DNA of 64,000 bases from Rhizobium sp. CF080 (GTDB taxonomy: Bacteria; Pseudomonadota; Alphaproteobacteria; Rhizobiales; Rhizobiaceae), in the NCBI RefSeq assembly GCF_000282095.2, contig NZ_AKKC02000009.1, positions 1 to 64,000 of the forward strand, read 5' to 3'. Within the stretch, counting starts at the first letter, position 1, and each line of letters starts with the position of its first letter. This document shows, piece after piece, positions 1,580 through 47,184 of the stretch. The notes beneath the pieces were generated by a model. That model made no database searches. It saw nothing but the letters and a program-made list of their open reading frames with translations, and was not told where the DNA came from. Made by a program: the position numbers and the translations under genes.

Positions 1580-2989
1580 GTGGAGAACAAAATGAAGAAA
1601 GCAGCCACCGTACTGGCAATCGCCGCCTGCGCCGTCACGATGACGATGATGCCGGCCGGCGCACAGGAGAAGGCCGGGACACTGCGCGTCGGCACGGCGC
1701 GCATCGACATCACCCCGCCGGCAAATGCCGCCTATCCGGCGATGAACGAATACGAACACGAGAAGCTCTATCTGCGGGCGATCGTTGTCGACAACGGTAC
1801 GACGAAGGCGGCATTCCTCGGCGCCGATCTCGGCGGCATCAACGAGAATGTCTGGGCTGACGCCAGCAAGCGCATCGCCGAGAAACTCGGCGCGCCGGCG
1901 GAGAACATCATCCTGTCGTCCACCCACACCCACAGTGACTGGCCGGCCAACGCCACGACGGCGCCGGGCCAGCCACGCTACGGCAGCGATTTCGTGGCGA
2001 ATGTGGCGCTCGATGCGGTGACAAAGGCGATGGCCGGGCTGCAGCCCGCGCTCGTCGGTTATTCCACCGGCGAGTCCTATCTCAACGTCAACCGCGACGT
2101 GGTCGACGACGAGACGCATCTGTGGACGCAGGCCGCCAATTTCAAAGCCTTCTCCGACAAGACCGTCGGCGTGCTGTCCTTCGTCAAGCCGACCGGCGAG
2201 CCGATCGCGGCCTATGTCAATTACGCCATGCACCCGGTCAACGGCTACCTGTCCGGCTTCGTCAGCGGCGATTTCGCGGCCGCGACCAGCCGTTATGTCG
2301 AGCAGAACCTCAGCGATGACATGGTGACGATCTTCACGCAGGGCGCATCCGGCGACCAGAATCCGCGTTGGCTGCGCACCGGCACGAACACGCTTGCCTC
2401 CAAGACCGGCGTCAAGATCAGCGGCTACGAGATGACCCGCGAAAAGATCGAGGCGCCGCTCCGCAACAAGCAGGTGGCGGACGGGCCGCTCGATCCCAAG
2501 GTAGCCCGCCAGCTCGGCGAATACATGCAGGCGCTCGGCGTCATCCTCGGCGAAGAGGTGATCCGGGTCATGTCGCATACGGACGGCCGGCTGAAATCGC
2601 CGGAGATCTGGGGCGCGCAGAGCACGTTGACATGCCCGGGCCGGACGCGGCTCGACAATGCCCGCGAAGGCGTGGCCGGCCAGTACAAGGACGGCGACAA
2701 TGTCGATATCCGGCTCGGCGTCGTCGGCATCGGCGATATCGCACTCACGACGGTCAATGCCGAGATCTACAGCCGCATCGGCCAGCGCACCAAGGAGGCA
2801 TCGCCGCTTTCCAAGACGATGCTGGTGACGCTTGCCAACGGTCGCGCCAATTCCGGTTACATTCCCGACGACGAGTCCTTCCAGCACCAGACATTCCAGG
2901 TGCTTGGCTCGAAGCTCAAGCCGGGCTGCGCCGAAGACGGGATCGCCAGCGGGATTGCTGCCTTGGTGAGCGGCCACCTCACCCAATGA
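1580..2989 (+). CDS. Neutral/alkaline ceramidase-family secreted hydrolase
   Basis: Resembles the N-terminal catalytic domain of neutral/alkaline non-lysosomal ceramidases, zinc amidases that cleave the N-acyl bond of ceramides. The start is GTG 1580, because AGGAGG at 1568-1573 sits 6 bases upstream; the in-frame ATG at 1592 would be 18 bases away. Residues 1-28 form a signal peptide ending AGA|Q, so the product is exported. Family features are VGTARIDITPP at the mature N-terminus, the metal-ligand-like STHTHS, and AMHPVNG followed by GASGDQNP. At 469 residues it lacks the C-terminal domain of full-length ceramidases. Many bacterial proteins of this type have no proven substrate, so the exact activity is uncertain. 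Confidence 0.8.
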   Translation: MENKMKKAATVLAIAACAVTMTMMPAGAQEKAGTLRVGTARIDITPPANAAYPAMNEYEHEKLYLRAIVVDNGTTKAAFLGADLGGINENVWADASKRIAEKLGAPAENIILSSTHTHSDWPANATTAPGQPRYGSDFVANVALDAVTKAMAGLQPALVGYSTGESYLNVNRDVVDDETHLWTQAANFKAFSDKTVGVLSFVKPTGEPIAAYVNYAMHPVNGYLSGFVSGDFAAATSRYVEQNLSDDMVTIFTQGASGDQNPRWLRTGTNTLASKTGVKISGYEMTREKIEAPLRNKQVADGPLDPKVARQLGEYMQALGVILGEEVIRVMSHTDGRLKSPEIWGAQSTLTCPGRTRLDNAREGVAGQYKDGDNVDIRLGVVGIGDIALTTVNAEIYSRIGQRTKEASPLSKTMLVTLANGRANSGYIPDDESFQHQTFQVLGSKLKPGCAEDGIASGIAALVSGHLTQ

Positions 2990-3062
2990 GGTGACGCGGG
3001 GCCGAGGCCACCCCGAAGGAGGCCGGTCTGGCGAGACCGGTCTGCGATACTGTGCCATCTGG

Positions 3063-3096
3063 GGCGCCATCCGGACGATCAGTACCGGATGGCGCC
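3063..3096 (+). terminator. Hairpin downstream of the ceramidase-like gene
   Basis: A perfect 12-bp stem (GGCGCCATCCGG with CCGGATGGCGCC) encloses a 10-base loop and is followed by AATTG. It lies 74 bases after the stop codon. There is no strong T-tract, so it is a likely but imperfect transcription terminator. Confidence 0.55.
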
Positions 3097-3107
3097 AATT
3101 GCATGAT

Positions 3108-3121
3108 CTAAAACGTTTCAG
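3108..3121. promoter_or_regulatory. LacI-family-type operator upstream of the beta-glucosidase
   Basis: CTAAAACGTTTCAG is a near-perfect palindrome around a central CG, with one mismatched pair, in the form typical of LacI/GalR-family operators. It overlaps a second inverted repeat, TTTCAGA (3116-3122) with TCTGAAA (3130-3136). It lies about 100 bases before the beta-glucosidase start and no regulator gene is adjacent, which suggests control of the glycosidase by a distant sugar-responsive repressor. Confidence 0.5.
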
Positions 3122-3219
3122 AATTATCATCTGAAATCTGTACAATCGGGCTTGGCTTGGTTAAACCGCCGCCGAACACGGTCTGGCAGACCACCCGCAA
3201 CCAGCTATGGCGGCATCCA

Positions 3220-43713: not shown

Positions 43714-44922
<1,209 letters not shown>

Positions 44923-44979: not shown

Positions 44980-45020
44980 GTTTGCCCGCGGTTCGGCTGG
45001 TTGCGGCAGGTTGTGCCGTC

Positions 45021-45048
45021 TCGACAATCACACGCGCTTATCTATGAT
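45021..45048 (+). promoter_or_regulatory. Promoter-like pair of tandem unit 1
   Basis: TCGACA (45021-45026), a 16-base spacer and TATGAT (45043-45048). Both hexamers and the spacer are identical in unit 2. A start near 45055 would give a leader of about 105 nt before the small ORF. Confidence 0.55.
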
Positions 45049-45159
45049 TGCAGCGTTCGAGGGCTGAAGCAGCACGCTCCGCGGCCAGCCGGAGCATCGG
45101 TGAAGACGGGCTTCACCGACTTCAAGCAAAAGCCCTGCTCTCGAACTGGAGGTGATGCG

Positions 45160-45249
45160 ATGTGGAAACCACTGAGCATTACGTTGCTGTTTAGGAAAAA
45201 TCGGACGGGCTGGTCAGTGTCCGTCCGATTCATGTTCTTAACCAAGTAA
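45160..45249 (+). CDS. Small basic peptide of unknown function, copy 1
   Basis: A 29-codon ORF starting MWKPLSITLLFRKNRTGW and ending FMFLTK. GGAGGT (45148-45153) sits 6 bases before the ATG. It has six basic and no acidic residues, and alternating hydrophobic/polar positions around a KNRTG turn suggest a cationic beta-hairpin. No family is recognised. A longer frame upstream to 45001 is open in this copy but interrupted by TGA in copy 2, so the short ORF is the shared unit. The ORF also contains an RNA stem, so selection may act on the RNA. Confidence 0.6.
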   Translation: MWKPLSITLLFRKNRTGWSVSVRFMFLTK

Positions 45250-45366
45250 CAAAGGAGGGCAGAGTTCGCGCTCTGTCCTCCACTCCGAAAATATACTCTC
45301 CCGTCAGCAGCCTGACAAGGGAAGCCGATCATCGATCTTTGTCAGGTTGCGGAAGGTTGTGTCGTC

Positions 45367-45394
45367 TCGACAATCACACGCGCTTATCTATGAT
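45367..45394 (+). promoter_or_regulatory. Promoter-like pair of tandem unit 2
   Basis: TCGACA (45367-45372), 16-base spacer, TATGAT (45389-45394); identical to the pair in unit 1. Confidence 0.55.
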
Positions 45395-45505
45395 TGCGAC
45401 GTTCGAGGGCTGAAGCAGCACGCTCCGTGGCCAGCCGGAACATCGGTGAAGACGGGCTTCACCGACTTCAAGCAAAAGCCCTGATCTCGAACTGGAGGTA
45501 ATGTG

Positions 45506-45592
45506 ATGTGGAAACCACTGATCATTACGCTGAGGTTTAGGAAAAACCGGACAAGCTGGTCAACAGCCGTCCGGTTCAGGTTCCTAATCTAA
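45506..45592 (+). CDS. Small basic peptide of unknown function, copy 2
   Basis: A 28-codon ORF starting MWKPLIITLRFRKNRTSW and ending VRFRFLI, aligned with copy 1 without gaps until the last codons. GGAGGT lies 6 bases before the ATG. It carries seven basic and no acidic residues. About a quarter of positions differ from copy 1, mostly conservative or basic gains. MWKPL, FRKNRT and VRF are kept. Some codon changes are silent and compensated in the RNA stem (AAT to AAC with CGA to CGG). Confidence 0.6.
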   Translation: MWKPLIITLRFRKNRTSWSTAVRFRFLI

Positions 45593-45675
45593 GCAAACGG
45601 AAAGCAGGGAGGCACCCCTGTCTTCCACTCCAAAAATATACTCTCCCATCAGCAACCTGACAAGAGAAGCCGCCC

Positions 45676-47184
45676 TTAGGGGTTGATCTTCGGGGGCTCG
45701 CCGAAGTTCGGCATGCCGGGCAATCCCTGCTGGCCGGGTTGGGCCGGCGCGCCGTCCATCGGGGGCAGGCCGAAATTCGGCATCTGGTTGCCGCCGCCAT
45801 TGCCGTTGCCGAAGCCGGGCACCTCGATCTTGATCGTGTTGAGATCGACGTCCGGCGCCTTGTCCAGCCAGTAGGTGACCGACTCGGGCCAGAAGATCAC
45901 GATGGCGACCAGGACGAGCTGCATGCAGAGCCACGGAATGGCGCCGAGATAGATATCCTTGGTCTTGACCGATTTCGGGGCGATCGAACGCAGATAGAAG
46001 AGCGCGAATCCGAAGGGCGGGTGCATGAACGAGGTCTGCATGTTGATGCAGAGCAGGACGCCGAACCAGATCAGGTCGATGCCGAGCGCGCTTGCGACCG
46101 GCGCCAGCATCGGGATGACGATGAAGGCGATCTCGAAGAAATCGAGGAAGAAGGCCAGGAAGAAGATGAAGATGTTGACGAAGATCAGGAAGCCGATGGC
46201 GCCGCCCGGAACGTGAGACAGAAGATGCTCGATCCACAGGCCGCCATCCATGCCCTGGAAGACGAGGCTGAAGCAGGTGGCGCCGACCAGGATGAAGACG
46301 ACCATGGAGGTGATCGTCATCGTCGAGTGCATGCCTTGGCGCAGCAAATCCCAGGTGAGACGGCGATGCATCGCAGCGATGGCCATGGCGCCGACGACAC
46401 CGAGCGCGCCTGCTTCCGTCGGGGTTGCGAGGCCCATGAAAATGGTGCCGAGCACGAGGAAGATCAGCACGATCGACGGGACCATGCCCCAGAGGACCTT
46501 CATGACCAGAGCCGCGTTCATCTCGCCGCGCGCTTCGGGCGGCAGCGGGGGAACGTCTTTCGGCCGGAAGATCGACAGGCCGAGGATGAACAGCATGAAG
46601 ATCGTGACCTGCAGGATCGAAGGTCCGATCGCGCCGAGATACATGTCGCCGACGGAACGGCCCAACTGGTCGGCCAATACGATCAGCACGAGCGAAGGCG
46701 GGATGACCTGGGTGATGGTGCCCGATGCGGCGATGACGCCCGTCGCAAGCCGCGGGTTATATCCGTATTTCAGCATGATCGGCAGCGAGATCACGCCCAT
46801 GGTGATGACCGAGGCGGCGACCGTGCCGGTAATCGCGCCGAGGATGGCGCCGACGACGATGACCGCATAGGCGAGGCCGCCGGGGACGGCGCCGAACAGC
46901 TTGCCCGTTCCTTCGAGCAGGTCTTCGGCCAGGCCGCAACGCTCCAGGATGGCTCCCATGAAGGTGAAGAAGGGAATGGCGAGCAGCAGGTCGTTGGAGA
47001 CGATCCCGAAGATGCGGAACGGCAACGCCTGCATGAAGGCGAACTCGAAATGGCCGGTGGCGATGCCGAGAAGACCGAAGAACAGGCCGACGGCCGAGAG
47101 CGAAAAGGCGACCGGGAACCCGTAGAGCATGAATATGATCATGCCCAGGAACATTGCCGGCGGCATTATACCGTATGCGAACAT
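45676..47184 (-). CDS. TRAP transporter large permease (DctM family)
   Basis: A 502-residue integral membrane protein with about twelve helices, the ion-coupled permease of a TRAP transporter. Family sequence GMIIFMLYGFPVAFSLS, AVIVVGAILGAITGTVAASVITMG and GVIAASGTITQVIPPS is present. The C-terminus has a Pro/Gly/Asn/Met/Gln-rich tail of about 45 residues (from NGNGGGNQMPNFG) not usual for DctM. It follows the small permease gene by 27 bases. Transcribed towards the tandem repeats and the binding-protein gene. Confidence 0.93.
   Translation of the reverse strand: MFAYGIMPPAMFLGMIIFMLYGFPVAFSLSAVGLFFGLLGIATGHFEFAFMQALPFRIFGIVSNDLLLAIPFFTFMGAILERCGLAEDLLEGTGKLFGAVPGGLAYAVIVVGAILGAITGTVAASVITMGVISLPIMLKYGYNPRLATGVIAASGTITQVIPPSLVLIVLADQLGRSVGDMYLGAIGPSILQVTIFMLFILGLSIFRPKDVPPLPPEARGEMNAALVMKVLWGMVPSIVLIFLVLGTIFMGLATPTEAGALGVVGAMAIAAMHRRLTWDLLRQGMHSTMTITSMVVFILVGATCFSLVFQGMDGGLWIEHLLSHVPGGAIGFLIFVNIFIFFLAFFLDFFEIAFIVIPMLAPVASALGIDLIWFGVLLCINMQTSFMHPPFGFALFYLRSIAPKSVKTKDIYLGAIPWLCMQLVLVAIVIFWPESVTYWLDKAPDVDLNTIKIEVPGFGNGNGGGNQMPNFGLPPMDGAPAQPGQQGLPGMPNFGEPPKINP

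Follow-up and report, generated by a model that had tools for sequence, protein, structure and literature searches.

Most described type I toxins are hydrophobic. AapA/IsoA of Helicobacter is present in several copies per genome, with an antisense RNA inside the peptide gene, an mRNA inactivated by a long-range fold, and AapA peptides that are membrane-active helices. The par locus of pAD1, as described in the part of the source consulted, combines convergent promoters, an mRNA of ~230 nt whose ribosome site is hidden by folding, the ~30-residue peptide Fst and a short antisense RNA, and its relatives are found on plasmids, phage and chromosomes (PMC7472228). The Fst/Ldr superfamily is characterized in the same text by a membrane helix followed by a conserved Trp and a charged C-terminus (PMC7472228). 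In Ldr/Rdl of E. coli, long tandem repeats carry one tiny peptide gene and one antisense RNA per unit, and Rdl overlaps the 5′ leader; in TxpA/RatA and BsrG/SR4 of Bacillus, it is the 3′ part of the mRNA that the antisense RNA covers, over about 75 and 120 nt (PMC4147584, as excerpted). BjsR10 of Bradyrhizobium occurs in several imperfect copies, and copy b has two convergent start sites, 128 nt apart, with complementary RNAs; it is listed as conserved only in Bradyrhizobium, and the section on it mentions no such peptide (PMC5082802).

Here, we analyzed a tandem repeat in a 64,000-nt stretch of Rhizobium sp. CF080 (NZ_AKKC02000009.1, positions 1 to 64,000), referred to as the window. Like par as described in the cited text, the repeated element has convergent promoter-like sites, a ribosome site predicted to be partly hidden, a peptide of ~30 residues, a predicted antisense RNA and copies on plasmids, a phage and chromosomes. 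Unlike Fst, a membrane helix with a charged tail, its peptide is a predicted amphipathic beta-hairpin, and no bidirectional terminator shared as in par was seen in the element, whose antisense RNA would end inside the ORF. The original prediction had pointed to a likeness with Ldr, which stands for the layout of tandem repeats, a tiny peptide and an antisense side, but not for membership: measured against the available description of Ldr/Rdl, the antisense start lies at the 3′ end, the peptide follows another pattern without a membrane helix, and there is no conserved upstream ORF. A conserved leader ORF of the Hok/Sok or Ldr/Rdl type was not found; upstream ORFs of at least 14 codons occur in 71 of 114 copies, with scattered ends. 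The position of the predicted antisense RNA at the 3′ part of the mRNA resembles what the excerpted text gives for TxpA/RatA and BsrG/SR4, but the predicted overlap includes coding region, the peptide is half the size of TxpA (59 aa) and the phylum is a different one. Like AapA/IsoA, the element is multicopy and has a putative antisense RNA that reaches into the peptide gene, but its peptide is predicted not to be helical and its long-range pairing is only predicted. It shares multiple copies and convergent starts (predicted in the element) with BjsR10 as the consulted section presents it, a comparison by description and not by sequence.

Two Tandem Repeats Lie between Convergent dctP and dctM Genes

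The window contains two direct repeats of 250 nt, 90% identical and 346 bases apart, with an additional 3′ block of 55 nt (91% identity, spacing 345). They sit between dctP (ending at 44922, plus strand) and dctM (ending at 45676, minus strand), both identified by Pfam matches (DctP and DctM), which agrees with the placement between converging TRAP genes that had been proposed. The plus strand of each repeat reads, in order, a promoter-like pair, a folded leader, GGAGG, an ATG-initiated ORF of 29 or 28 codons, a 3′ stem and the motif CACTCC. The promoter-like pair TCGACA-N16-TATGAT is identical in both copies, as first noted, and lies at 45021–45048 (10 of 12 consensus matches) and, from the promoter scan, at 45367–45394. 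GGAGG begins 12 nt upstream of the ATG in each copy (45148–45152 and 45494–45498), so the claim of a ribosome site at equal spacing before ORFs of 28 to 29 codons is borne out. The ORF of copy 1 (45160–45249, plus strand) encodes a 29-aa peptide, MWKPLSITLLFRKNRTGWSVSVRFMFLTK, with six basic and no acidic residues, and that of copy 2 (45506–45592, plus strand) a 28-aa peptide, MWKPLIITLRFRKNRTSWSTAVRFRFLI, with seven basic and no acidic residues. Identity between the copies is 97% in the leader, 86% in the initiation region and 83% in the second ORF half and 3′ stem; the earlier figure of ~94% for the 5′ halves was about right.

A promoter scan of 851 bases returned four promoter-like sites, compared to 0.2 in shuffles: two on the plus strand and one per repeat on the minus strand. 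The minus-strand sites (45318→45290 and 45663→45635) had been absent from the original prediction. Elsewhere in the window, the interval 23375–23680 matches two Rfam families, the alphaproteobacterial sRNA ar45 and a speF leader, the latter 9 bases further on.

The Element Family Is Widespread in Rhizobiales

A DNA search of 120 relatives matched 48 of them and provided 69 copies, 68 of which were aligned (two from the window). A covariance model built from the leader and ORF of the 68 aligned copies was used for all taxon surveys. In taxon samples that all include the window genome and are mostly subsets of larger groups, the model matched 54 of the 57 genomes in the genus at E ≤ 0.01 (53 with E ≤ 3e-38), 71 of 297 genomes of the family at E ≤ 1e-5 (32 of 109 genera), and 53 of 397 genomes of the order at E ≤ 0.01; 25 of these 397 match at E ≤ 2e-20 and span seven families, and the rest are weak. 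Matches in the class were limited to 2 of 385 genomes (the window genome and one weak match); in the phylum, 7 of 398 genomes matched, of which four belong to the same family and three are weak. The four class and phylum genomes outside the order were not accepted, as their matches are weak (E 1.8e-5 to 5e-4). As far as sampled, the family appears to be confined to the order.

More than 200 copies of the element were read. Under fuller scoring, the window genome has 4 matches, and six further genomes have 10, 10, 8, 13, 11 and 9, counts that are biased because these six were picked for many matches in the family survey. Copies are often arranged in tandem, with up to 13 per genome. Among the matches listed, records with the element belong to Neorhizobium, Rhizobium, Agrobacterium, Phyllobacterium, Ciceribacter and Xaviernesmea; a contig pattern scan also returned Streptomyces and other stretches, of which those without an element-model match were excluded, and pattern-scan loci do not enter the ORF and structure counts.

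Copies Occur on Plasmids, on a Phage and in Gene-Transfer-Agent Clusters

Sixteen plasmid records carry the element, from Sinorhizobium, Pararhizobium, Shinella, Ancylobacter, Roseibium/Labrenzia and Rhizobium. The ORF is intact in five of the six plasmid loci scanned (L268, L269, L270, L281 and L282); among these six, L271 (S. meliloti psymA) has no intact ORF. Rhizobium phage B1VFA also carries a copy with an intact ORF. The peptide is too short for usual gene finding; of the 19 best matches on plasmids and phage, 18 have no annotated feature beneath them.

The copies on phage B1VFA (L266) and on the Sinorhizobium plasmid pLM21S1 (L268) have common neighbors, a nicotinate/nicotinamide phosphoribosyltransferase and a prohibitin/SPFH protein, and pLM21S1 may therefore be a phage-plasmid. 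Record MW462191, filed as phage, was not used as phage evidence, since it has electron-transfer flavoprotein oxidoreductase and AMP nucleosidase genes. In this record of bacterial metabolic genes, the 29-aa ORF of the family (L267, 3707–3796) is annotated as hypothetical protein QRI43784.1. MT837352 was set aside as a weak match (E 1e-3) without annotation.

Two chromosomal sites recur in the genus, the gap between dctP and dctM and a position beside a gene starting MATLLFQAAG. The latter gene has GTA_TIM and Phage-tail_3 domains, and an NlpC/P60 protein is encoded across the element (Pfam, one locus, L334); at this locus (2810–3191) the element lies between the NlpC/P60 gene and the GTA_TIM hub gene, in opposite orientation to both. 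Among 230 loci, a set that may count the same genomes twice via two collections, the start motif of the GTA_TIM gene was found in 73, and 71 of them also have the NlpC/P60-gene motif on the same strand. In the 11 both-motif loci listed, the two genes flank the element, which reads the opposite way. These two genes are neighbors within the gene-transfer-agent cluster, where the pair goes by the names g14 and g15. In IMG/VR, all 61 loci found with the peptide carry the element, and 44 of the 61 have the start motif of the GTA_TIM gene; the remaining loci include contigs of 80–120 kb, one with a ParA-like gene nearby. IMG/VR classes as viruses many contigs of ~12–25 kb that bear the NlpC/P60 and GTA_TIM pair.

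The Sense RNA Has a Conserved Fold Predicted to Hide Part of the Ribosome Site

Both window units fold better than 200 of 200 shuffles (z −7.1 and −5.2). For five named helices, 94.7% of cells are paired across the 68 copies and 21 of 33 pairs have changed on both sides, which places the covarying stems of the original prediction beyond chance; none of 500 shuffles reached the observed pairing, and slid partners paired in 33–42%. In the leader of copy 1 (45056–45147, plus strand), P1 (45056–45064/45137–45145) encloses P2 (45076–45080/45091–45095) and P3 (45097–45102/45114–45119), with changes on both sides in 6 of 9, 5 of 5 and 4 of 6 pairs, respectively. The leader of copy 2 (45402–45493, plus strand) is part of the same alignment and covariation counts. 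The start-site stem (45152–45158/45176–45182 in copy 1, within 45148–45182) pairs a segment that takes in the final G of the ribosome site with codons 6–8 and encloses the start codon; 95.4% of its cells are paired, and 4 of 7 pairs have changed on both sides. As computed, the ribosome site is hidden by folding of the mRNA, as in type I systems.

A change to G-U keeps the pairing only on the strand that folds, and the other strand then reads C-A. On the sense strand of the 68 copies, G-U cells outnumber C-A cells in the start-site stem (106 vs 2), P1 (64 vs 16) and P2 (16 vs 2), and the same applies to the 3′ stem in 97 copies (84 vs 8); hence, these four stems are kept on the sense strand. 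The counts for P3 (4 vs 3) are uninformative. The proposal that the stems serve one sense RNA is therefore incomplete: it fits these four, but the wobbles in the stem inside the ORF favor the opposite strand. Copy 1 has its 3′ stem at 45254–45281 and CACTCC at 45281–45286, and copy 2 has both within 45599–45631 (plus strand). A pairing of CACTCC with the ribosome site appears in the computed folds of both window units; it is beyond covariation testing because both sequences hardly vary. The sense promoter scored a mean of 7.3 of 12 in 190 copies compared to 6.6 in shuffles, with at least 9 in 24 copies (13%) compared to 2.6%.

Two leader motifs, AAGCAG and CCAGCCGG, are nearly invariant though unpaired or half paired (columns 15–40 of the 68-copy alignment), which a bound protein or ligand could explain. 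In 30 tandem pairs, mean identity is 0.947 in the leader, 0.917 in the initiation region and 0.868 in the antisense region. The RNA itself could be the product, acting as a structured riboregulator or as a leader that senses a ligand, in which case the ORF would encode a leader peptide; the strong covariation, the invariant stretches and the leader as the most similar part of neighboring copies would all suit this explanation. We nevertheless consider it improbable, since there is no single downstream gene (among the neighbors that were clustered, downstream genes vary by site, and dctM faces the other way) and since the length, start, ribosome site and hydrophobic pattern of the ORF are kept.

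The ORF Encodes a Predicted Cationic Amphipathic Beta-Hairpin

A ribosome site followed by an ORF of 24–34 codons is present in 128 of 136 copies, with exactly 29 aa in 105 and an ATG start in 124. In a further set, 76 of 83 copies keep both and 7 are broken. Of the eight copies without the ORF, two have a stop at the Trp codon, and the others lost the start or ribosome site, shifted frame or changed their end. The two copies in which a stop codon replaces the conserved Trp, L015 and L029, show that broken copies occur besides intact ones. These few broken copies (8/136 and 7/83) are what a functionless, decaying duplication has in its favor; set against conservation across the order, covariation and retention of the ORF, it is hardly credible.

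When the ORFs were anchored on the Trp, which is absent in at least 4 of 128, 111 of 114 could be aligned. An Arg follows at +5 in 109 of the 111, and hydrophobic residues alternate on either side. At the hydrophobic positions −11, −9, +4, +6 and +8, the second codon base is near-invariant (entropy 0 to 0.13 bits), unlike the variable first and third bases; stops interrupt the two alternative frames in 87 and 64 of 93 copies. Pairwise dN/dS within the genus was 0.70, with 5 of 100 column shuffles equally low. We rejected it as proof of coding, since frame +1 gives practically the same value (0.68) and the measure does not discriminate; a version anchored on the start codon was discarded because it mixed two registers. 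As in type I systems, a small ORF of less than about 60 residues with a ribosome site is conserved as a protein. By computation, the family, the conservation of its ORF, the RNA structure and the conserved promoter sequence are established.

AlphaFold2, run on the window peptide with 56 other rows, predicted strands at residues 6–15 and 18–27 of 30 (mean pLDDT 78.7, pTM 0.29), with the Trp located at the turn. This agrees with the beta-hairpin-like alternation seen originally, and the peptide is predicted to be a cationic amphipathic beta-hairpin. The mean net charge of 190 peptides is +5.3. The original description of six or seven basic and no acidic residues fits both window copies, but only 115 of the 190 family peptides are free of acidic residues. 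A membrane-like hydrophobic stretch was found in only 3 of the 190, and we rejected membership in Fst/Ldr on this basis, together with the two predicted strands, the Trp at the turn, the lack of a family-model match and, for Ldr, the position of the antisense side.

The main rival to a toxic peptide is a nontoxic regulator under the same control: a translated, antisense-controlled peptide that is held low and acts, for instance, on a membrane complex, the ribosome or gene-transfer-agent production. A cationic, amphipathic and not hydrophobic peptide would be in keeping with such a role, as would the recurrent chromosomal sites in the genus (the dctP-dctM gap and the position beside the GTA_TIM gene). 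The copies on plasmids, phage and phage-like contigs with other neighbors, the tandem arrays and the broken copies are better explained by a selfish module, and we regard the nontoxic regulator as possible, though rather unlikely.

A Conserved Opposite-Strand Promoter Suggests an Antisense RNA That May End inside the ORF

Just past the 3′ stem and CACTCC, the minus strand has a promoter-like pair of the form TTGNNN-N17-TATATT that points back into the repeat (TTGTCA-N17-TATATT at 45290–45318 in copy 1 and at 45635–45663 in copy 2, each with 10 of 12 matches). Across 164 copies, its mean score is 8.7 of 12 compared to 6.5 in shuffles, and 96 copies score at least 9 compared to 2% of shuffles; in a further 26 of the 190 copies it could not be scored, as a CACTCC-like anchor or sequence is missing. 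The spacer is 17 in 123 of the 164, and the promoter ends 3 nt from GGAGTG in 99. A companion tally stands at 104 of 114 copies. The opposite-strand promoter is thus better conserved than the sense promoter.

An RNA from this promoter would span the 3′ stem and part of the ORF. In copy 1, the ORF-internal stem (45199–45230, coordinates from the plus-strand scan) is followed on the minus strand by a T-run (45200–45196), which we read as the terminator of a putative antisense RNA of ~90 nt (45194–45284, minus strand), both ends being placed by the promoter and the T-run. By homology and from its antisense fold, copy 2 has a corresponding stem with a minus-strand T-run (45545–45576) and, by the same reasoning, a putative RNA of ~90 nt (45540–45629, minus strand). 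An A-run of at least 4 before the ORF stem, equivalent to a minus-strand T-run after it, is present in 51% of 111 copies compared to 11% of synonymous recodings. Lysine directly before the stem is encoded by AAA in 55 of 72 cases (55:17), compared to 50 of 107 (50:57) elsewhere (p 1e-4). Read in sense, the ORF stem has more C-A than G-U cells (45 vs 6 in 68 copies, 59 vs 22 in 111), the reverse of the other stems and the pattern that folding in the antisense RNA would predict, although this excess is confounded by conservative codon changes (Val/Ile, Gly/Ser), which could account for part of it.

Roughly half of the copies have no minus-strand T-run, and in 29 of 97 neither stem is followed by a T-rich tail. 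A terminator scan called the ORF stem of copy 1 on the plus strand; its minus-strand calls omitted the ORF stem and, in copy 2, included part of the 3′ stem (45620–45605) as terminator-like. Because the T-runs are patchy and the scan calls discordant, the 3′ end of the antisense RNA is uncertain, and it may differ between subfamilies. The idea that the antisense region diverges faster between tandem copies, which would keep the RNAs specific, looked suggestive with 9 pairs but found no significant support once 23 arrays with 30 pairs were compared (p 0.16 and 0.19, with 27 pairs in the compared bin).

The minus-strand promoter could also be the useful part of the element, a cassette for leftward genes such as the gene-transfer-agent hub gene, with the ORF being incidental. 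Its orientation toward the g14-like and g15-like genes, where the element lies between them, would fit this explanation. In the window, however, the minus strand runs from the element into dctP in antisense, and the ORF is kept across the order, which makes a promoter cassette very improbable.

The Element Matches No Described Family in Database Searches

In Rfam, including the rhizobial ar sRNAs, the element has no match above the gathering threshold; weak matches to psm_mec (E 0.2) and to a Betaproteobacteria toxic sRNA (E 0.18) were put down to chance, the second overlapping a terminator-like site behind dctP. Two peptides searched against Pfam and NCBIfam and three searched against PHROGs and PADLOC gave no match, and nothing was found among the sequences of solved structures in PDB for the few members searched. 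Among the matches listed from the open-access literature (subscription papers, preprints and supplements being outside this scope), no description of the element was recognised. Likewise, none of the best matches listed from that literature was recognised as describing a type I toxin-antitoxin family that is native to rhizobia. With more than 200 copies read and no database match, the suggestion of a new small-peptide/structured-RNA element is supported. The conditions named beforehand as refuting it, an absence of homologs beyond this locus or a loss of the stems and ORF, did not hold, as ORF and stems are conserved across genera.

A Proposed Type I-Like Module in Rhizobiales

We propose that each repeat is probably a stand-alone module with the design of a type I toxin-antitoxin system, in which the peptide is kept off by an antisense RNA. 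The plus strand would produce a weakly promoted mRNA with a folded leader of ~90 nt and a partly hidden ribosome site, encoding the cationic beta-hairpin peptide of ~29 residues. From the minus-strand promoter past the 3′ stem, an antisense RNA of ~90 nt would be made. With its end inside the ORF, it would pair with the second coding half and the 3′ stem, thereby switching the peptide off; CACTCC could additionally pair with the ribosome site. Once the antisense RNA is lost, the mRNA would unfold and be translated into the peptide. We infer both transcripts, the antisense control and the toxicity from the sequences.

The peptide is most likely growth-inhibiting, a role suggested by the architecture and the distribution of the element. 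Such an activity would account for the twofold control, the high copy number and tandem arrangement, the existence of broken copies and the occurrence on plasmids, on a phage and in gene-transfer-agent clusters. The scarcity of peptides with a transmembrane-like stretch, the patchy T-runs, the discordant terminator calls, the confounded C-A excess, the 26 copies that could not be scored for the antisense promoter, the nondiscriminating dN/dS and the nonsignificant divergence test count against the type I-like module. More tentatively, the elements may represent an order-wide, previously unnamed type I superfamily of Rhizobiales, with a soluble or surface-active cationic beta-hairpin toxin and an antisense RNA ending inside the toxin gene, one stem being code and opposite-strand terminator at once; having settled in gene-transfer-agent clusters, it may guard or time their expression.

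The module would work like a type I system, yet fits no named family by the membership tests run. It offers a testable case of selection on a single DNA stem in two roles, protein code and antisense terminator. The element would represent an overlooked part of these genomes, near-universal in the genus with up to 13 copies per genome, carried on plasmids and a phage and located inside gene-transfer-agent clusters.
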